Shown here: in pieces, positions 3,370 through 35,517 of the stretch
Layout of the letters: every line of letters starts with the position of its first letter
Position numbering within the stretch: position 1 is the first letter of the stretch
DNA from: Zestomonas insulae
GTDB taxonomy: Bacteria; Pseudomonadota; Gammaproteobacteria; Pseudomonadales; Pseudomonadaceae
Length of the DNA stretch: 64,000 bases
Assembly: GCF_016901015.1 (NCBI RefSeq)
Contig: NZ_JAFEUP010000002.1
Coordinates: 124,001-188,000 of the forward strand
Reading direction: 5' to 3'
Notes under the pieces: model-generated
Seen by the model: only the letters and a program-made list of their open reading frames with translations
What the model was told of the DNA's origin: nothing
Databases searched by the model: none
Position numbers and translations under genes: made by a program

Positions 3370-3385
3370 TCGTCCACACGGACGA
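3370..3385. promoter_or_regulatory. Steroid-regulon palindrome, divergent site
   Basis: Perfect 16-bp palindrome TCGTCCACACGGACGA between the lipoprotein gene and the acyl-CoA dehydrogenase operon. -10-like hexamers lie about 33 bp from the centre on both sides (3408-3413 rightward, 3342-3347 leftward). It matches eight other sites in the window. Confidence 0.7.
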
Positions 3386-7429: not shown

Positions 7430-8632
7430 ATGAAAGAAGCCGTCATCGTCTCCACCGCCCGCACGCCGATCGGCAAGGCCTTCCGTGGCGCCTACAACGA
7501 CACCGAGGCGCCGGTGCTCGGCGGCCATGTGGTGGCCGAGGCGGTGCGCCGCGCCGGTATCGAGCCGGGCGAGGTAGATGACGTGATCATCGGCGCCGCC
7601 GCCCAGCAGGGCACCCAGGCCTACAACCTCGGCCGCCTCTGTGCGGTGGCCGGCGGCCTGCCGCCCAGCGTGGCCGGCATGGCCATCGAGCGGCAGTGCT
7701 CGTCCGGGCTGATGTCGATCGCCTGGGCGGCGAAGAGCATCATCTGCGACGAGATCGATATCGCCGTGGCCGGCGGCCTGGAATCCATCTCGCTGGTGCA
7801 GAACAAGCACAAGAACAGCTACCGCAACCAGTCGCAGGCGGTGCTGGAACAGGACCCGACCGCCTACATCGCGATGCTCGAGACCGCCGAGATCGTCGCC
7901 GAGCGCTACGGCATCTCGCGTGCCGCGCAGGATGAATACAGCTACCACAGCCAGTTGCGCACCGCGCTGGCGCAGAGCGCCGGGCTGTTCGACGCCGAGC
8001 TGGCGCCGCTGACCACCCGCCAGGCGCTGTTCGACAAGGCGAGCGGCGAGACCCGCTACCAGGCGGTGACGCTGCAGCGCGACGAATGCAACCGCGCCGA
8101 CACCACCCTGGCCGGCCTCGGCGAACTGGCCCCGGTGTGGCCGGGCGGCCAGTGGAGCGCGGCGGGCAAGCACATCACCGCCGGCAACGCTTCGCAGTTG
8201 TCCGACGGCGCCTCGGCCTCGGTGCTGATGAGCGCCAAGCTTGCCGAGCAGAAGGGCCTGGAGCCGCTGGGCATCTACCGCGGCCTGGCGGTGGCCGGTT
8301 GCAACGCCGACGAGATGGGCATCGGCCCGGTCTACGCGATTCCCAAGCTGCTCAAGCGCCACGGCCTGAAGCTCGACCACATTGGCCTGTGGGAGATCAA
8401 CGAAGCGTTCGCCTGCCAGGTGTTGTATTGCCGCGACACCCTCGGCATCCCCGACGAGCGCCTCAACGTCAACGGCGGCGCAATCGCCATCGGCCACCCG
8501 TTCGGCATGTCCGGCGCGCGGATGGTTGGCCACGCCCTGCTCGAGGGCAAACGCCGCGGCCTGCGCTACGTGGTGGTGAGCATGTGCATCGGCGGCGGCA
8601 TGGGTGCGGCGGCGCTGTTCGAGGTGGTCTGA
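7430..8632 (+). CDS. fadA6: Acetyl-CoA acyltransferase (thiolase), FadA6-like
   Basis: This 400-residue type II thiolase has the nucleophilic Cys at residue 90 in [11 protein letters not shown], the [18 protein letters not shown] motif with the active-site His, and the C-terminal CIGGGMGAA with the second Cys. It should cleave a beta-ketoacyl-CoA and release acetyl-CoA. Its place behind FadE30-, IpdF- and MaoC-like genes matches FadA6, which acts in HIP catabolism. The start is the ATG at 7430 preceded by GAGGAATTCGCA; an upstream extension would translate repeat DNA. It is separated from maoC by 353 bases of repeats, so cotranscription is uncertain. Confidence 0.88.
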
Positions 8633-8877
8633 AGACTCTCAAGGCCACCGCGCCGACTCCACTAAGCGCGGTGCCTCCCCATCTGGGTAAAGCGATGAAC
8701 GGCGCTGGGTGCATGGCCCAGCTCGACGTGGTCAGCCAGGTTTTCGGCCTGCTCGGCAGCGTCGAGGCTGGGCCGATCACGTCGCCCTGCCAGTCCGGCA
8801 AACGCTTGAAGTAGAGCGACTGATAGAGACTCGGCGAGCCACGCCCAAGTCGCTCGGCAACCTCAATGAAACCGCTA

Positions 8878-8907
8878 ACGGCAGCCTCGCAAGCTGCCGT
8901 TTTTTTA
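8878..8907 (+). terminator. Rho-independent terminator
   Basis: Stem ACGGCAGC / GCTGCCGT with a 7-base loop followed by seven T. It would stop transcription coming from the thiolase gene before the lipase operon. Confidence 0.75.
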
Positions 8908-8969
8908 TGGCGCAGCGCGTGAGGACGCAGATGGCGTGCTCTTGCCCCCCCCCCTGGTTGGAGGGGGTA

Positions 8970-8986
8970 GGGGGTCTGAATTTGCT
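8970..8986 (+). promoter_or_regulatory. Possible sigma-54 promoter of the lipase operon
   Basis: GG at 8972-8973 and GC at 8984-8985 are ten bases apart, with TTTGC at the -12 element. The -24 element (GGGTC) departs from TGGCAC. Lipase operons of some Pseudomonas species are known to be sigma-54 dependent, which makes this weak match worth recording. Confidence 0.3.
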
Positions 8987-9108
8987 TCCAATACTTTCCA
9001 GCGATGACGGCCAAGCCGAAATTCCGGAAAGGAGGTGACCAACGAGCAGACCGCGCAACCACACGCAGCATTCCAGACATTACAAAAACAAAAAGTTGAG
9101 GGAATGAA

Positions 9109-10080
9109 ATGAACAAGCACGTTGGCAAACTCCTTGCCGTCGCAACCCTGAGCGCCGCCGCCACCATCGGTGCCGCCCTGCCGCTGTCCGCGCAAGCCGC
9201 CTGCTTCAGCCTCACCGGCCAGTGCGGCTACACCAAAACCAAGTACCCGATCGTGCTGGTCCACGGCGCACTCGGCTTCGACAAGATCGGCCTGCTCGAT
9301 TACTGGTACGGCATCCCCGATCAGCTGCGCGCCTACGACGGTGCCGATGTCTACCTGACCCAAGTCTCCGCCTCCAACAGCCATGAAGTGCGTGGCGAGC
9401 AACTGCTGATCCAGATCCAGCAAATCCTTGCCGCCACCGGCAAGGCCAAGGTCAACCTGATCGGCCATAGCCAAGGCAGCCCGACGGCGCGTTATGTCGC
9501 CTCGGTACGCCCGGACCTGGTGGCTTCGGTGACCAGCGTGCACGGCGCCAACGGCAAGGCTGAAGCGGTGGACGCGATCCTCGGCATCACCCCGCCGGGA
9601 CTCGCCGGTGATGCCGTGCAATCGATCGCCAACGGTCTCACCCAGTTGATCGGCATCCTCTCCAACGACGGCGGCCTGCCGCAGAACTCCGCGGCCTCGC
9701 TGCAATCGCTGAGCACCGCCGGCGCGATGGCATTCAACGCCGCGCATCCGGAAGGCATCCCGACCACCGAGTGCGGTGAAGGCGCCTATCAGGTCAATGG
9801 CGTGAAGTACTACTCCTGGGGTGGCGCGCAGGCCTACACCAATGCCGCCGACCCGATCGATCCGGTGCTGGGCCTGGTGTCGCTGGTGTTCAAAGGCGCC
9901 GACAACGATGGACTGGTGAGCAGCTGTGCCCAGCACCTGGGCAAAGTGATTCGCGACGACTACCGCATGAACCACATGGACGCCATCAACCACACGGCGG
10001 GCATCGTGAATCTCTTCGAGACCAACCCGGTCACGCTGTACCGTCAGCAGGCCAACCGTCTGAAGAACGCGGGCCTGTAA
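9109..10080 (+). CDS. lipA: Secreted triacylglycerol lipase (family I)
   Basis: This 323-residue protein has a Sec signal peptide of about 30 residues ending LPLSAQA. The mature part shows YPIVLVHGALGFDKIG (oxyanion-hole region) and GHSQG with the nucleophile Ser at residue 121. Near the C-terminus, DNDGLVSSCAQ supplies Asp/Cys positions and NHMDAINHTAG fits the catalytic His region of Pseudomonas family I lipases. It hydrolyses long-chain acylglycerols outside the cell and normally needs a dedicated foldase, encoded 12 bases downstream. An A-rich stretch (9083-9094) upstream of the RBS resembles an Hfq/Crc target. It lies inside the steroid cluster without the steroid palindrome, so it may also act on sterol esters, but this is speculation. 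Confidence 0.92.
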   Translation: MNKHVGKLLAVATLSAAATIGAALPLSAQAACFSLTGQCGYTKTKYPIVLVHGALGFDKIGLLDYWYGIPDQLRAYDGADVYLTQVSASNSHEVRGEQLLIQIQQILAATGKAKVNLIGHSQGSPTARYVASVRPDLVASVTSVHGANGKAEAVDAILGITPPGLAGDAVQSIANGLTQLIGILSNDGGLPQNSAASLQSLSTAGAMAFNAAHPEGIPTTECGEGAYQVNGVKYYSWGGAQAYTNAADPIDPVLGLVSLVFKGADNDGLVSSCAQHLGKVIRDDYRMNHMDAINHTAGIVNLFETNPVTLYRQQANRLKNAGL

Positions 10081-10092
10081 CAAGAGGGTGAC

Positions 10093-10947
10093 ATGCAGAA
10101 GACCAAAGCCCTTTTTGCAGGACTTGGAACGGTGGCCGTCATGGCCGCCGTTTTTTTCGGAATGAGCTACTTGCGCCAAGGCGGCGCAACGCCTACCCAG
10201 GCCGATTTGCTTGCCCTCGCCCCCTCGCTGGACGGCACCCAACCCGACGGCGATGTACGCAGCGACGGCGAAACGCTGGTCGTCGATGGCAGCCTGCGGC
10301 TGATGTTCGAATACTTCCTGACGGCGGTGGGCGAAAAGAACCCCGACGAGATCCGCGCGGCCATCGAGCGCGAGCTCGACCAGCGCCTCAGGCCTGCACC
10401 GGCTGCTGAAGCCAAGCGTCTGCTGGGCCGTTACTTCGCCTACAAGCGCGCGCTGGTAGCGGCGGAGCAACAGCTGCAGGGCCACGGTGATTCGCTGGAC
10501 GACATGCGCGCGCGCATGGAGGCGATGCGACAGACGCGGGCGCGTTTCTTCAGCCCGCGGGAAGCGCAAGCCTTGTTTGGCGACGAGGATGCCTACAACG
10601 CCGATGCGCTGGCACGACTGGAGGTCCTGCACGACAAGACGCTCAGCGCCGCGCAGCAGAAGGACAAGCTGGCCAAGCTGGATGCGGCGCTGTCGCCGGA
10701 AATGCGTGAGGCCAAGGAGGCGCCGCTGCATATCCTCAAGCTGGAAGCGGCGGTGAGCAAGATGCGCGAGCGCGGCGCCAGCGACGACGAGGTCTACCGC
10801 ATGCGGGCCGCGGCCCTCAACCCGGGCGCCGCCGAGCGCCTGGCGAAACTGGACCTGGAACTGGCGGAGCGGGCGAAGAGCCGCGCGGCGCTGGCCGCCA
10901 GCAAGGCGGCGGATACCCACGACGGCATGCATGCGGAGGCGAGGTAG
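10093..10947 (+). CDS. lifO: Lipase-specific foldase (lipase chaperone)
   Basis: This 284-residue protein has one N-terminal membrane anchor (residues 5-27), a short variable linker, then the Lif signature at residues 69-78, RLMFEYFLTA. The family consensus is RxxFDY(F/C)L(S/T)A; here the usual Asp is Glu at residue 73. The rest is charged, helical and rich in Ala, Glu and Arg, as expected for the extended domain that wraps around the lipase in the periplasm. It follows the lipase gene by 12 bases, the standard arrangement. The length is somewhat shorter than the roughly 340 residues of P. aeruginosa LifO. The Asp-to-Glu change is conservative and probably tolerated. Confidence 0.9.
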   Translation: MQKTKALFAGLGTVAVMAAVFFGMSYLRQGGATPTQADLLALAPSLDGTQPDGDVRSDGETLVVDGSLRLMFEYFLTAVGEKNPDEIRAAIERELDQRLRPAPAAEAKRLLGRYFAYKRALVAAEQQLQGHGDSLDDMRARMEAMRQTRARFFSPREAQALFGDEDAYNADALARLEVLHDKTLSAAQQKDKLAKLDAALSPEMREAKEAPLHILKLEAAVSKMRERGASDDEVYRMRAAALNPGAAERLAKLDLELAERAKSRAALAASKAADTHDGMHAEAR

Positions 10948-10957
10948 GCGCGGGGCG

Positions 10958-10973
10958 TAGTCCTGTCGGACGA
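10958..10973 (+). promoter_or_regulatory. Steroid-regulon palindrome upstream of ksi
   Basis: TAGTCCTGTCGGACGA, followed exactly 33 bp centre-to-centre by AATAAT (10996-11001) as the probable -10. Sequence similarity to the tesD promoter continues through the RBS. Confidence 0.75.
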
Positions 10974-11034
10974 TGTTGCTCTTTGGGGGCCTCGGAATAA
11001 TCCCGGCACTACAACAGGCCGAGGAGGACACCCC

Positions 11035-11121
11035 ATGGGTGCATCAAAGCAAGGGCGTTGCGTCACGCTGCAGCGGCAGTCTCGGCAACTCGACGCGGCC
11101 ACGCCGTCGGCGGTGGCCTGA
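11035..11121 (+). pseudogene. Short leader ORF, duplicated 5' end of tesD
   Basis: A 28-codon ORF (ATG at 11035) with a strong GGAGG ribosome binding site. Its first 15 codons (MGASKQGRCVTLQRQ) align with the start of the TesD hydrolase (MAAQPQGHFVTLQDG), and the DNA upstream aligns with the tesD promoter. The stop codon overlaps the ATG of the isomerase gene by one base, so it probably serves to couple translation. It is seen as a truncated copy of tesD; a functional peptide is unlikely. Confidence 0.65.
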
Positions 11122-11504
11122 TGGACGCGCTGCTGATTCGCCGGCGCATGGCGCGCTACGTGGAACTGGTGGATGCCGGCGACATCGACGGCATCCTTGC
11201 CCTGTATGCCGCCGACGCGGTGGTCGAGGACCCGGTGGGCACGCCGCCGCTGGTCGGTAGCGAGGCGATCGCGCGCTTCTACCGCGACGGCCTCGGCCGC
11301 AGCAGCGCGCGCGCCGAACTGACCGGCCCGGTGCGGGTGGCCGGCAACCGCAGTGCGGCCATGCCGTTTCGCGTCGACCTCGACTGGGGCGGCCAGCCCT
11401 GCTCGATCCATGTGATCGACGTGATGGAGTTCGACGCCGACGGCCGCATCCGCTCGATGAAGGCCTACTGGGACGAGGACAACATGGAGCGCCGTCCGGA
11501 ATGA
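11121..11504 (+). CDS. ksi: Steroid delta5-3-ketoisomerase (KSI)
   Basis: This 127-residue protein matches the Pseudomonas putida KSI pattern closely: MARYVELVDAGDIDGILALY, VVEDPVGTPPLVG and MPFRVDLDWGGQPCSIHVID. The catalytic residues appear as Tyr13, Asp37 and Asp100, each three lower than Tyr16, Asp40 and Asp103 of the P. putida enzyme. It moves the double bond of delta5-3-ketosteroids to delta4, feeding KstD and KshA. The ATG at 11121 has no good ribosome binding site of its own but overlaps the stop of the leader ORF, so translational coupling is likely. The next gene overlaps by four bases. Confidence 0.92.
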   Translation: MDALLIRRRMARYVELVDAGDIDGILALYAADAVVEDPVGTPPLVGSEAIARFYRDGLGRSSARAELTGPVRVAGNRSAAMPFRVDLDWGGQPCSIHVIDVMEFDADGRIRSMKAYWDEDNMERRPE

Positions 11505-11938
11505 CCCTGGAGCAACGCCTCGCCCGCCTGGAAGCGCTGGAAGCCATCCGCCAGCTCAAGCACCGTTACCTGAACGCCTGCGACCTCAAGGACGTGGCAG
11601 CGATTCGCGCCTGCTTCGCGGCTGGTGACGTGCTGATCGACTACGGTCCGCTGGGCAGCTTCAGCGACCGCGACAGCTTCGTCGCCCTGTACCAGCAGCT
11701 CGCCTGCCAGGCGCGGGTCATCGATTTGCACCACGGCGCCAACCCGGAGCTGCAACTGCTCGACGACGAGCAGGCCGAGGGCCGTTGGGCGCTGTACTAC
11801 TTCAACCTCGACGGTGAAAGCGGCGCGACCCGCCAGCTCGGCGGCTTCTACCAGGACCGCTATCGGCGCATCGGCGGCGAGTGGCGGATCGTCGCCACGA
11901 CGTTCCGTGCGCATTCCGAGTACAGCCGGCTGAATTAG
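11501..11938 (+). CDS. SnoaL-like / NTF2-fold protein
   Basis: This 145-residue protein has the SnoaL-like pattern: an N-terminal helix ALEAIRQLKHRYLNACDLKD, a central strand region with DVLIDYGPLG, and C-terminal GGFYQDRYRRIGGEWRIVATT. It has the same cone-shaped fold family as the ketosteroid isomerase before it but does not show the Tyr/Asp/Asp triad in the same places, so it is probably not a second isomerase. It may be a small hydratase, dehydratase or isomerase acting on steroid intermediates. The ATGA overlap with ksi shows they are one transcript. Function unknown beyond the fold. Confidence 0.8.
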   Translation: MTLEQRLARLEALEAIRQLKHRYLNACDLKDVAAIRACFAAGDVLIDYGPLGSFSDRDSFVALYQQLACQARVIDLHHGANPELQLLDDEQAEGRWALYYFNLDGESGATRQLGGFYQDRYRRIGGEWRIVATTFRAHSEYSRLN

Positions 11939-13845: not shown

Positions 13846-13861
13846 TAGTCCTCTCGGACGA
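13846..13861 (+). promoter_or_regulatory. Steroid-regulon palindrome upstream of tesDEFG
   Basis: TAGTCCTCTCGGACGA followed by AATAAT at 13884-13889 (33 bp centre-to-centre). The RBS GAGGAG and ATG of tesD follow. Nearly identical to the ksi promoter. Confidence 0.78.
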
Positions 13862-13921
13862 TGTTGCCGCGCCGCGGCGTGGAAATAATCCCGGCACAAC
13901 AACGAGCCGAGGAGATTGCCC

Positions 13922-14749
13922 ATGGCCGCGCAACCGCAAGGACACTTCGTCACCCTGCAGGATGGCCTGCGCCTGCATTACCTGGACAGCGGCACCGGCG
14001 AGCCGGTGGTGCTGATCCACGGCAGCGGCCCGGGGGCCAGCGGGCACAGCAACTTCAAGCTGAACTACCCGGAATTCGCCGCCGCCGGCCACCGCGTGAT
14101 CATCCCCGACCTGCCCGGCTACGGCGCCTCGGATAAACCGGAAACCGACTACACCCTGGAGTTCTTCGTCGCCGCGCTGAGCGGCCTGCTCGATGCCCTG
14201 GACATCGGCCGCTGCGTGCTGGTCGGCAACTCGCTGGGCGGCGCGATCGCCATCAAGCTGGCCCTCGACCAGCCGCAGCGAGTGAGCAAGCTGGTCCTGA
14301 TGGCGCCCGGCGGGCTGATGGACAAGGAGCAGTACTACCTGCAGATGGAAGGTATTCAGCGCATGGGCGCCGCGTTCGCCGCCGGCGAGCTCAAGGACGC
14401 CGCCGGCATGCGCCGCCTGCTCGGCCTGCAGCTGTTCGATGCCAGCCAAATCAGCGACGAGACCGTCGCCGAGCGCGTCGCGGTGGTCAATCAGCAGCCG
14501 CTCTGCGTGCTGACCCGCATGCAGGTGCCGAACCTGGCCGCACGGCTCGGTGAGCTGCAGTGCCCGATCCTCGGTTTCTGGGGCATGAACGACAAGTTCT
14601 GCCCGGCCTCCGGCGCGCAGACCATGATGGACGCCTGCCGGCAGATCCGCTTCGTGCTGCTCAGCGAGTGCGGGCACTGGGTGATGGTCGAGCATCGCGC
14701 ACTGTTCAATCGCGAGTGCCTGGCATTCTTCGCGGAGCGTGCGGCATGA
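13922..14749 (+). CDS. tesD: Meta-cleavage product hydrolase (4,9-DSHA hydrolase type)
   Basis: This 275-residue alpha/beta hydrolase has HGSGPGASGHSNFKLNYP (oxyanion region typical of meta-cleavage product hydrolases), the nucleophile Ser104 in GNSLGG, an Asp in GMNDKFCP and the His in ECGHWVMVEH. In steroid degraders TesD/HsaD cleaves the C-C bond of 4,9-DSHA to give HIP and a hydroxyhexadienoate. The following three genes process that dienoate, fixing the role. The start at 13922 was chosen because GGAG lies seven bases upstream; a TTG at 13916 is also open. Biphenyl-type hydrolases are the closest alternative, but the steroid context argues against that. Confidence 0.88.
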   Translation: MAAQPQGHFVTLQDGLRLHYLDSGTGEPVVLIHGSGPGASGHSNFKLNYPEFAAAGHRVIIPDLPGYGASDKPETDYTLEFFVAALSGLLDALDIGRCVLVGNSLGGAIAIKLALDQPQRVSKLVLMAPGGLMDKEQYYLQMEGIQRMGAAFAAGELKDAAGMRRLLGLQLFDASQISDETVAERVAVVNQQPLCVLTRMQVPNLAARLGELQCPILGFWGMNDKFCPASGAQTMMDACRQIRFVLLSECGHWVMVEHRALFNRECLAFFAERAA

Positions 14750-18511: not shown

Positions 18512-19642
18512 TCAGCCGAGCGTCGCCACGCTGCGCAGGATCAGGCGCACCAGCATGGTCTGGCGGGTCACGCCGGTCTTCGAGAAGGTCGAGCGCAGGT
18601 GCGCGCGCGCCGTGTTGCGGCTGATCCCCAGTTCCTCGGAGGCTTCGTCGAGGGTCAGACCGTTGGCCAGCAGCATGGCCAGCTGGGTTTCCGCTGGGGT
18701 GAAGTCGAACAGTGCGCGGACGATTTCCTGTGGCGCGCTGGACTGCTGCTCCGGGTCGCTGATGAAGATCGCCACTGCCGGACACTGTTTGCCCTCGTTC
18801 CACGCCGACAGCGGCACCGAACGCACGATGATGCCGAGGTCGGCGCGGCCGGACGGGCGCTGCACGCGCAGTGCCTCGACCACCGAGGGGTTGCTGCTCT
18901 TCTGCGACAGCAGCGCCTGCTTCACCAGACGGCGGAACTCCTGGTTGTCACGCGCGTTGCCGACCTGCAGGCCGTCGTCGACGCGCTTCAGACCGTCCTT
19001 GTCCTGTAGCAGGCGCTCGGCGACCTGGTTGGTCTGCAGCACCTTGCCTTCCTCGTCGAGGATGATGGTGCCGACCGCCATCTGGTCGACCGCGCCGGCG
19101 TACAGGTTGCGCTCCGACTCGATGCGGTTGAGGCGGATGTGCAGCTGCACGGCGCGCTCGAGGTGCGGCACGAACAGCGCCAGCAAGTCCTTGTCGGCCT
19201 GGGTGAAGGACGGTTGCTCCGGGCCGCGGCTTATGCGAATGCGGCACTGCGCGCCGTCGCTGGTGCGGATGTCGGCGCCGAGGATGTGCAACACGCCGAC
19301 CGGCTCGAGGAAGTTCTTGTAGAACTCCGAGGCGGTCCACTCCGCCAGCGGAATGAACTCGGTGTTGCACACCACCTGGCGGTTGGGCAGGTCGACGAAC
19401 GGGTCGAGCGCGTAGAAGTGCTTGTTGTACGACGCGGTCGCCTCGGCCGAGGTGCCGTTGGTGTTGACCATCAGGCCGTCGACGTGACTGCTCGGCGGCC
19501 GCAGGATGAAGGTGACGTACTTGCTCTGCAGGGTGTGGTTGAGCAGGTTGAGAAACGACGCCCATGGCACGTTTTCCAACGGGCCCTGGTACAGGCTGCC
19601 CAGCGCATCGCTGAACGCCTCGAAACTGAGGGGGTGAGCCAT
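18512..19642 (-). CDS. tesR: LuxR-type regulator, TesR-like
   Basis: This 376-residue protein has a GAF/PAS-like sensory N-terminus (residues 1-300) and a C-terminal LuxR helix-turn-helix, FTPAETQLAMLLANGLTLDE followed by SEELGISRNTARAHLRSTFSKTG. This layout matches TesR, the activator of steroid genes in Comamonas. Its gene lies directly downstream of kshA, transcribed the same way. A repeated AAC motif (19656-19667) precedes the start codon, suggesting Hfq/Crc control. It is the best candidate to bind the nine palindromes, since LuxR-type domains bind inverted repeats next to -35. Steroid sensing itself is inferred. Confidence 0.82.
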   Translation of the reverse strand: MAHPLSFEAFSDALGSLYQGPLENVPWASFLNLLNHTLQSKYVTFILRPPSSHVDGLMVNTNGTSAEATASYNKHFYALDPFVDLPNRQVVCNTEFIPLAEWTASEFYKNFLEPVGVLHILGADIRTSDGAQCRIRISRGPEQPSFTQADKDLLALFVPHLERAVQLHIRLNRIESERNLYAGAVDQMAVGTIILDEEGKVLQTNQVAERLLQDKDGLKRVDDGLQVGNARDNQEFRRLVKQALLSQKSSNPSVVEALRVQRPSGRADLGIIVRSVPLSAWNEGKQCPAVAIFISDPEQQSSAPQEIVRALFDFTPAETQLAMLLANGLTLDEASEELGISRNTARAHLRSTFSKTGVTRQTMLVRLILRSVATLG

Positions 19643-33581: not shown

Positions 33582-33597
33582 TCGTCCGAAGAGACTA
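33582..33597 (-). promoter_or_regulatory. Steroid-regulon palindrome upstream of DUF1302/DUF1329
   Basis: TCGTCCGAAGAGACTA; on the minus strand TAGTCT-CTTC-GGACGA followed at 33 bp by CATAGT (33554-33559). Confidence 0.72.
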
Positions 33598-33654: not shown

Positions 33655-33670
33655 TAGTCTCATCGGACGA
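33655..33670 (+). promoter_or_regulatory. Steroid-regulon palindrome upstream of kstD
   Basis: TAGTCTCATCGGACGA followed at exactly 33 bp by AACAAT (33693-33698). It forms a divergent pair with the site at 33582. Confidence 0.75.
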
Positions 33671-33750
33671 TGTTGTGGGGCCGGACGAGGCGAACAATCC
33701 GCGCCAACGCAGGGTCGCAAGCGTGCTTCGCGGGACCTGCATTCGCCTCG

Positions 33751-33766
33751 AACAATAAAAAAGGAG
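33751..33766 (+). promoter_or_regulatory. Possible Hfq/Crc motif at the kstD RBS
   Basis: AACAATAAAAAAGGAG; AACAATAA fits AANAANAA and runs into the Shine-Dalgarno sequence. Confidence 0.5.
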
Positions 33767-33774
33767 CAGGCCCG

Positions 33775-35517
33775 ATGACCCCTTCCGATAGCCCCTGGGA
33801 TCACAGTTGCGACGTGCTGGTGGTGGGTTCCGGCGCCGGTGCGATGACCGCCGCGCTACGCGCCCACGACCTCGGTCTGCAGGTGCTGGTGGTGGAGAAG
33901 AGCGACCGCTACGGCGGCACCTCGGCGGTGTCCGGTGGCGGCATCTGGATCCCCGACAACTCCGGCATCGCCGCGCTCGGCGGTGCGGATTCGCCGGCCG
34001 AGGCGATCCGCTACATCCGCCAGGTGACCCACGACGAGATCGACGACGGGCGCATCGAGGCCTACGTCGCCCACGGCCGCGAGATGGTCGACTACCTGGC
34101 GCAGCACAGCCGCGTGCGCTTCGAGGCGCAGCCGGCCTACGCCGACTACTACCCGGAGGTCGACGGCGGCAAACCTGGCTACCGCTCGATGGACCCCTGT
34201 CCGTTCGATGCGCGTCTGCTCGGCGCGGAATTCGCCCGCATGCGCGCGCCGTCGCCCGGCACGCTGATGATGGGCCGCGTGGCGATGACCATGAAGGAGG
34301 CCCAGGTGCTGCTGTGCCGGCGCCCCGGCTGGCTGGGCCTGACCCTGAAGATCTTCTGGCGCTACTGGCGCGACCTCGGTGGCCGCCTGCGCTCGCCGCG
34401 CGACCGTTTCCTGACCCTCGGCAACGCGCTGGTTGGCGCGCTGCGCCGCTCGCTGCTCGACCGCGAGGTGGCGCTGTGGCTGGACAGCCCGCTGGAGCGC
34501 CTGATCGAGGCCGGCGGCCGCGTGCTGGGTGCCGAAGTGCGCCAGGGCGAGCGCCTGTTGCGTATCCAGGCGCGTCGTGGCGTGGTGCTCGGCGCCGGTG
34601 GTTTCGAGCGCAACCAGGCGATGCGCAGCCAGTACCACCCGCAGCCGTCGCGTAGCGAATGGAGCGCCACACCGCCGTACAACACCGGCGACGCGATCCG
34701 AGCCGGCCAGGCGCTCGGCGCGCAGACCGCGCTGATGGGCCACAGCTGGTGGGCGCCGACCACCCATGTCGAAGGCGAGGAGAAACAGCGCGCGCTGTTC
34801 GTCGAGCGCACCTTGCCCGGCTGCATCCTGGTCGACTCGGCCGGCCAGCGTTTCGTCAACGAGGCGGCGCCCTACACCGACATCGTCTACGCCATGTACG
34901 CCCACGACGCCGAGGGCGCGCGCAGCGTGCCGTGCTGGATGGTGTTCGACGCCGAGTTCCGCCGCAAATATCCCTGCGGCGCGCTGCTGCCCGGCTACGC
35001 ACAGCCCGACTGGCAGGTGCCCAAGCAGCTGCGCAGCTACTTCCACAAGGCCGACAGCCTGGAGGCGCTGGCCGCGCAGATCGGCGTCGACGGCGCCGGC
35101 CTGGTCGCCAGCGTGCAGCGCTTCAACCCGATGGCCGAGCGCGGCCGCGACGAGGACTTCCACAAGGGCGAGTCGCTGTTCGACCGCTACTACGGCGATC
35201 CGCACGTGCAGCCCAATCCGTGCCTGGCGCCGCTGGCCAAGGCGCCGTTCTACGCGGTGCGCGTCGACGCCGGCGACATCGGCACCAAGGGCGGCCTGCT
35301 GACCGACGTGCATGCCCGCGTGCTGCACGAGGACGGTCAGCCGATCGCCGGGCTGTACGCCATCGGCAACAGCGCGGCGTCGATGATGGGTCGCACCTAC
35401 CCGGGCGCCGGCTCGACCATCGGCCCGGCGATGACCTTCGGCTACCTGGCTGCCAACCACCTCGCCAGCCTGAGTGCGGTGGCGCAGGCCGCCGACAGTC
35501 CCGCGCTGTCCGTCTAA
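33775..35517 (+). CDS. kstD: 3-ketosteroid delta1-dehydrogenase
   Basis: This 580-residue flavoprotein has the FAD-binding VLVVGSGAGAMTAALRAHDLG loop, GGTSAVSGGGIWIPDNSG, the YADYYPEVDGG segment with a catalytic-type Tyr, and near the C-terminus MGRTYPGAGSTIGPAMTFGY, which carries the Tyr and Gly of the KstD active site. It introduces the 1,2 double bond in ring A of 3-ketosteroids and, with KshAB, triggers ring B opening. The RBS AAGGAG precedes the ATG at 33775 by nine bases. An SDR gene follows after 89 bases. Among the best-supported steroid genes here. Confidence 0.93.
   Translation: MTPSDSPWDHSCDVLVVGSGAGAMTAALRAHDLGLQVLVVEKSDRYGGTSAVSGGGIWIPDNSGIAALGGADSPAEAIRYIRQVTHDEIDDGRIEAYVAHGREMVDYLAQHSRVRFEAQPAYADYYPEVDGGKPGYRSMDPCPFDARLLGAEFARMRAPSPGTLMMGRVAMTMKEAQVLLCRRPGWLGLTLKIFWRYWRDLGGRLRSPRDRFLTLGNALVGALRRSLLDREVALWLDSPLERLIEAGGRVLGAEVRQGERLLRIQARRGVVLGAGGFERNQAMRSQYHPQPSRSEWSATPPYNTGDAIRAGQALGAQTALMGHSWWAPTTHVEGEEKQRALFVERTLPGCILVDSAGQRFVNEAAPYTDIVYAMYAHDAEGARSVPCWMVFDAEFRRKYPCGALLPGYAQPDWQVPKQLRSYFHKADSLEALAAQIGVDGAGLVASVQRFNPMAERGRDEDFHKGESLFDRYYGDPHVQPNPCLAPLAKAPFYAVRVDAGDIGTKGGLLTDVHARVLHEDGQPIAGLYAIGNSAASMMGRTYPGAGSTIGPAMTFGYLAANHLASLSAVAQAADSPALSV

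Follow-up and report, generated by a model that had tools for sequence, protein, structure and literature searches.

In the window, by which we mean the whole 64,000-nt stretch of DNA that was analysed (G000:C3:124001-188000 of a 4.87-Mb genome), ksi is preceded by a 28-codon leader ORF that is well supported, by comparison with related loci, as a chimera of a tesD start and a thiolase tail. Our preferred explanation, which we hold with moderate confidence, is a promoter capture that kept ksi and snoaL in a predicted regulon or returned them to it, with the leader ORF handing ribosomes to ksi. We infer the order of events, the donor, the induction and the coupling.

The region looks like a steroid-degradation cluster because of its gene content, which runs from acyl-CoA dehydrogenases, SDRs, a thiolase, ksi and a SnoaL_4 gene to an SRPBCC-type gene, a TesD/HsaD-type hydrolase and meta-cleavage genes (coordinates in Table 1). 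Ksi resembles solved steroid delta-isomerases (1e3v, E 3.5e-44), and the tesD product scored 173.7 bits against NCBIfam HsaD, under that model's 400-bit cut-off. The gyrB gene shares 84-86% identity with those of five genomes from the P. citronellolis / panipatensis / pseudonitroreducens kind (group C), 86% with that of G168 and 81-85% with those of the other genomes tried. Groups C, F, R and G2 are labels of the present analysis, and the clades were named after the trees had been inspected.

Table 1. Positions of the genes and sequence elements discussed, numbered from the first letter of the window.
Feature	Position	Strand	Remark
Operator-like site TCGTCC-ACAC-GGACGA	3370..3385	+	1 mismatch; upstream of acyl-CoA dehydrogenase...thiolase genes
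Thiolase gene	7430..8632	+	Longest ORF from 7310; directly 5' of ksi in relatives
Putative decayed lipase C-terminus in the thiolase-lipase gap	8718..8810	+	88% to lipase ends over 34 nt, weaker elsewhere
Terminator-like hairpin and T run	8877..8901	+	Consensus match only
Lipase gene inside the putative ancestral thiolase-ksi junction	9109..10080	+	
Lipase chaperone (foldase) gene	10093..10947	+	
Operator of the putatively captured promoter, TAGTCC-TGT-CGGACGA	10958..10973	+	
-10-like hexamer AATAAT	10996..11001	+	Offset 38 from operator start
Leader ribosome-binding site CCGAGGAGG	11019..11027	+	Anti-SD duplex -11.8 kcal/mol
tesD-like leader ORF codons 1-13, MGASKQGRCVTLQ	11035..11073	+	
Leader codons 14-19, 18 nt	11074..11091	+	No source matched
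Remnant of a thiolase 3' end, covering leader codons 20-28 and the TGA	11092..11121	+	Overlaps ksi ATG
ksi, delta5-3-ketosteroid isomerase	11121..11504	+	
SnoaL_4-domain gene (snoaL)	11501..11938	+	Start overlaps ksi stop (ATGA)
Own tesD promoter	13846..13921	+	
tesD/hsaD-type hydrolase gene	13922..14749	+	Top NCBIfam match HsaD
Regulator with GerE (LuxR-type) domain	18512..19642	-	Weak PAS matches; candidate activator

A sequence-only reading of this DNA had placed an operator TAGTCCTGTCGGACGA at 10958-10973 and a 28-codon ORF from an ATG at 11035 to a TGA at 11119-11121 in front of ksi, and these coordinates were confirmed. The final A of the TGA is the first A of the ksi ATG, a one-base overlap (TGATG). 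An upstream in-frame TTG at 11058 was rejected as the ksi start, homologues starting at or near 11121. The stretch from 10958 to 11073 resembles the promoter, ribosome-binding site and first 13 codons of tesD, well past the operator, and the genome's own tesD promoter was the sole second match in the genome to 10900-11200 at E <= 0.001 (74%, E 1.2e-13). The same reading had proposed that similarity continues beyond the operator above chance, and this was borne out: the next 100 nt aligned to the own tesD promoter at z 9.7, a score reached by 0 of 500 shuffles. With the same test, nine other operator-bearing promoters of the genome gave z values of only -0.5 to 2.8, which excludes a likeness due to the shared operator alone and argues for homology between the leader and tesD. 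The block GGAATAATCCCGGCAC (allowing at most 1 mismatch) occurs at just two places in the window, 10994 and 13882, and AATAATCCCGGCAC and CCGAGGAG of the leader also match the own tesD. The proposed alignment as far as codon 15 proved too long, the match to tesD stopping at codon 13 (11073), and no match was found for the 18 nt of codons 14-19. The predicted RNA fold of the leader was ordinary (z 0.37), and a special RNA structure at this place was rejected on that value.

The other end of the leader ORF points to the thiolase gene. In 34 of the 35 named Pseudomonas loci ksi has thiolase immediately before it, as is the case in 25 of the 26 other genomes with ksi in a genus sample (398 genomes, ksi match at E <= 1e-35, overlapping the 35 named loci). 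The exceptions are L098 among the named loci and L061 in the genus sample, both with a hexapeptide-repeat gene in between; L061 (G280) and L098 (Pseudomonas sp. SJZ079) are probably one genome, because gyrB lies at the same coordinates in both. Their hexapeptide-repeat gene is a different interruption of the thiolase-ksi junction from that in the window. In four of the five group C loci (L067, L069, L070 and L071), thiolase ends in GAGGTGGCCTGATG, with its stop overlapping the ksi start; the leader in the window ends in GCGGTGGCCTGATG. With the stop fixing the register, leader codons 20-28 share 21 of their 27 nt with the 3' end of the L069 thiolase. When 5337 in-frame 27-mers from 14 window genes were compared with the L069 end, only the window's own thiolase end (24 identities) exceeded 19, and a scan of every window position, both strands included, gave 21 or more only at 8603 (24) and 11092 (21). 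Because this match is rivalled only by the own thiolase end, codons 20-28 are best read as a thiolase remnant. Since the leader tail matches the thiolase end that directly precedes ksi in relatives, we read the TGATG overlap as the old thiolase-ksi junction, which the leader inherited. The sequence-only reading was thus right that the leader stop overlaps the ksi ATG, and its view that copying had made the overlap gives way to an ancestral junction.

Relatives lack a tesD-type promoter at this place, as had been supposed: the operator, -10, ribosome-binding site and first codons stand before ksi in the window, and the exact operator (TAGTCY...CGGACGA) precedes ksi in 0 of the 35 named loci, for which the locus DNA was compared. 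Matches to the leader in other genomes always lay away from ksi in two overlapping draws of 398 and 348 genus genomes. A conserved leader peptide was therefore rejected, as these draws held no second genome with the leader beside ksi. The leader is known from one genome, in which variation cannot show selection or the order of events.

A lipase-foldase pair parts thiolase from ksi and snoaL in the window. The P. taiwanensis xwS3 genome carries a pair 80% identical over 1930 nt (L183, G432:C50), around which neither the thiolase end nor the ksi start was matched within the 3.8 kb compared, and has thiolase directly before ksi elsewhere (L096). Rearrangement of the thiolase-lipase gap on more than one occasion is suggested by what is probably a lipase C-terminal relic at 8718-8810. 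The window's genome has a further lipase-like match elsewhere, at C1:358317, and one to a foldase at C1:357113. Terminator-like matches were not enriched (1 match in the scan, against 3.4 in shuffles). A plasmid source of 8600-11200 was rejected; the 12 records retrieved covered at most 32% of it at 60-80% identity.

Exact matches to the operator number four in the genome, all of them inside the window. When three mismatches were allowed, the pattern was enriched in the window (35 against 16.8), and with two mismatches it showed no genome-wide enrichment, giving 48 and 59 matches where the reversed control gave 398 and 391. Two further operators, at 33582-33597 (-) and 33655-33670 (+), stand back to back with one mismatch each, one of them preceding a FAD_binding_2 ORF (33670-35517), and another with one mismatch is found some 110 kb ahead of the window, at G000:C3:13518. 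Because the thiolase operon, which carries ksi in relatives, has an operator-like site of its own at 3370, the leader promoter may keep or restore regulation of ksi rather than add steroid-inducible control.

We scanned offsets 28-47 from the operator start for hexamers with 3-5 of 6 matches to TATAAT in 11 promoters, hand-picked because each had an operator with 0-2 mismatches and stood in front of a gene. In 10 of the 11 the top hexamer, which shared first place in one of them, fell at offset 38, and in the other it fell at 37. The leader hexamer matches at 5 of 6 positions, and its spacing from the operator is the usual one, as expected of a promoter in the predicted TAGTCCNNNCGGACGA regulon. 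The operator would then abut the -35, as for a class II activator. The GerE-domain protein encoded on the minus strand (Table 1) is a candidate activator of the TAGTCCNNNCGGACGA sites. In C. testosteroni, a LuxR-type regulator of steroid genes, TeiR/TesR, is described (PMC6678751).

The layout upstream of ksi is of the coupling type, in that stop and start overlap (TGATG) and the leader ribosome-binding site outdoes that of ksi (-11.8 vs -6.3 kcal/mol for the anti-SD duplex). It is also stronger than that of tesD (-8.9 kcal/mol). The window ksi retains a weak Shine-Dalgarno sequence of its own; the corresponding duplex is -7.4 kcal/mol in four group C loci and -8.1 to -8.7 kcal/mol in three other relatives. 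Compared with L084 and L093, the leader differs at 1 of 34 motif positions and at 20 of 82 others (p 0.007), and over nine comparisons such avoidance of motif positions gave p 0.0003-0.033, values to be read with the motif set having been picked after the alignment was inspected and with conservation also reflecting constraint on the tesD side.

The tesD-like part of the leader is closer to promoters of other lineages than to the one nearby. It is identical at 95 of 116 positions to the fluorescens-type promoters of L080, L084, L091 and L093, at 83 of 116 to the own tesD promoter and at 71-77 of 116-118 to those of group C. Among the 33 tesD promoters compared (32 from named loci and the own one), 26 were nearer the leader than the own tesD, 1 was equal and 5 were farther. 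In a BLAST search with the leader, 19 other genomes scored above the own tesD (best 84%, E 1e-28; own 74%, E 7.5e-14).

A tree of 34 rows, without G168, placed the leader with fluorescens-type and P. fontis promoters (95/88) and the own tesD with group C (93/80); the leader and own tesD forced together gave AU p 0.094. In larger trees the own tesD pairs with that of G168 (99/90), a genome in which thiolase lies directly before ksi. Forcing the leader and own tesD together without G168, which also forces the own tesD away from G168, gave AU p 0.026 with 45 rows. One of these rows, L158, is no tesD promoter, and the 44 rows left without it gave p 0.003. In the 44-row tree the leader sat on a weak basal branch (64/81), and the own tesD, G168, C and R came together without it (98/84). 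With these 44 rows, the leader joined to own and G168 gave p 0.076, joined to own, G168, C and R p 0.39, and joined to 24 fluorescens-type/fontis rows p 0.11, a set that omits further rows on that side of the tree. None of the bootstrap trees (0%) joined the leader and own tesD. Single-site tests gave counts of 20:9 (p 0.06) with L093, 20:11 (p 0.15) with the F consensus, 9:8 with R and 7:18 with C, and for fluorescens-type against own they were borderline (p 0.05-0.15). A recent duplication of the neighbouring tesD promoter, as first proposed, is contradicted by the nearness of the leader to tesD promoters of other lineages and by the p of 0.003. It is unlikely that the copying postdates the split from G168, because the own tesD pairs with G168 and the leader with own tesD alone is rejected. 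On identity (95/116 vs 83/116), a foreign donor is weakly favoured over an older copy from the own lineage.

In the promoter capture that we favour, ksi of the ancestor would have followed thiolase with a TGATG overlap, and the lipase-foldase pair would have come to sit 3' of thiolase in the lineage of the window. A tesD-type fragment of about 116 bp, with operator, -10, ribosome-binding site and 13 codons, would then have been placed before ksi and snoaL and joined through 18 nt to the last nine thiolase codons, so that the stop-start overlap with ksi was retained. Its source would more likely be another Pseudomonas lineage, with an older own copy also possible. A LuxR-type activator on the operator beside the -35 would start the ksi-snoaL transcript upon steroid; ribosomes would enter at the strong leader site, read 28 codons, stop at the TGA and restart at the ksi ATG. 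A narrower version, to which we give only tentative credence, is the repair of an operon: insertion of the lipase-foldase pair would have stranded ksi and snoaL, and the promoter of about 116 bp from tesD of another lineage, joined to the thiolase tail, would have restored both regulon membership and coupling.

An older duplication within the lineage, in which a copy of the own tesD promoter, with the first codons, was placed upstream and then diverged, is conceivable but doubtful. It could have arisen, for example, as the junction of a tandem duplication spanning the DNA between the thiolase 3' end and codon 13 of tesD, with later loss of the left copy; a tesD start joined to a thiolase end, with a full thiolase to the left and a full tesD to the right, is the trace expected of such a junction. 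The two further blocks shared with the own tesD speak for it, as do the AU values for the leader with own (34 rows, p 0.094), with G168 added (p 0.076) and with C and R as well (p 0.39). It has to contend with the 26 of 33 tesD promoters that are nearer the leader, with bootstrap trees that never pair the two, and with the rejection of a copy postdating the G168 split. Moreover, G168 and all five group C loci keep thiolase directly before ksi, which requires loss or relocation of an older copy.

We regard as unlikely a recombination scar between two clusters, in which a fluorescens-type cluster came to lie beside the native one and a deletion removed the DNA between codon 13 of its tesD and the 3' end of the native thiolase; the leader would then be a deletion-born fusion, and the lipase pair would have arrived separately. 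A single step would account for both a foreign-looking tesD start and a native-type thiolase end, and steroid clusters have been proposed to spread horizontally among Proteobacteria (PMC4810484). Mosaic origin of the cluster genes was checked by eight gene trees, which left out the SRPBCC gene. Neither SnoaL nor the thiolase protein has its highest identity in group C: SnoaL is closest to the fluorescens-type locus L093 (80%) and thiolase to the sp. 2FG/SJZ079 loci (89%, against 81% for group C), as a second cluster would allow. The ksi (97) and tesD (95) trees nevertheless place the window with group C, the thiolase, sdr2, snoaL, acd2 and sdr1 trees do not reject that grouping (p 0.19-0.45), and acd1, which does (AU p 0.03), still falls inside the C+R set (99). 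The start of the tesD-like stretch within about 12 nt of the operator also counts against such a scar. Least probable of all, to our minds quite improbable, is that the leader is inert debris, with ksi read through from the lipase-foldase transcript or not needed. Change at 4 of 13 residues relative to fluorescens-type TesD starts, the 18 nt of unmatched source and the decayed lipase fragment nearby would suit such a relic. An exact operator, a -10 at 5 of 6 with the usual spacing and a ribosome-binding site above that of tesD would not, and the ksi and snoaL reading frames are both intact.

Read as a promoter capture, the window would offer a natural case, at the level of nucleotides, of how an operon interrupted by other genes is rewired, the route being the takeover of a promoter from the same pathway with the old translation junction kept. 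The leader also offers a candidate operator and -10 geometry for Pseudomonas steroid genes and a concrete test, namely the dependence of Ksi on the leader ATG.

A partial literature search found no earlier description of a tesD::thiolase leader arrangement. Promoter capture or gene fusion has been seen in laboratory evolution of P. fluorescens (PMC4395868) and of E. coli and B. subtilis (PMC11111574). There a gene gains expression once the promoter and first part of a different gene come to stand in front of it, an arrangement also seen in the window; those cases use an adjacent promoter reached by deletion or tandem duplication, whereas the window leader does not appear to be a recent local copy and, unlike them, re-uses the stop-start overlap of a lost neighbour. 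Deletion-born fusion genes, as portions of PMC12803068 present them, likewise combine the 5' end of one gene with the 3' end of another, and deletion is one possible route for the window leader; unlike those fusions, the window ORF has only 28 codons and is probably a leader rather than a new protein. The ORF lies directly 5' of a gene, as cbrX does before cbrA in P. putida, where the translation of the two is reported as linked (PMC6591292); unlike cbrX, the window ORF is chimeric, comes from one genome and has a predicted coupling. As in the TeiR/TesR system of Comamonas testosteroni (PMC6678751), steroid-degradation genes occur with a LuxR-type regulator, although the operator and regulator of the Pseudomonas cluster are, unlike that system, predicted from sequence alone.
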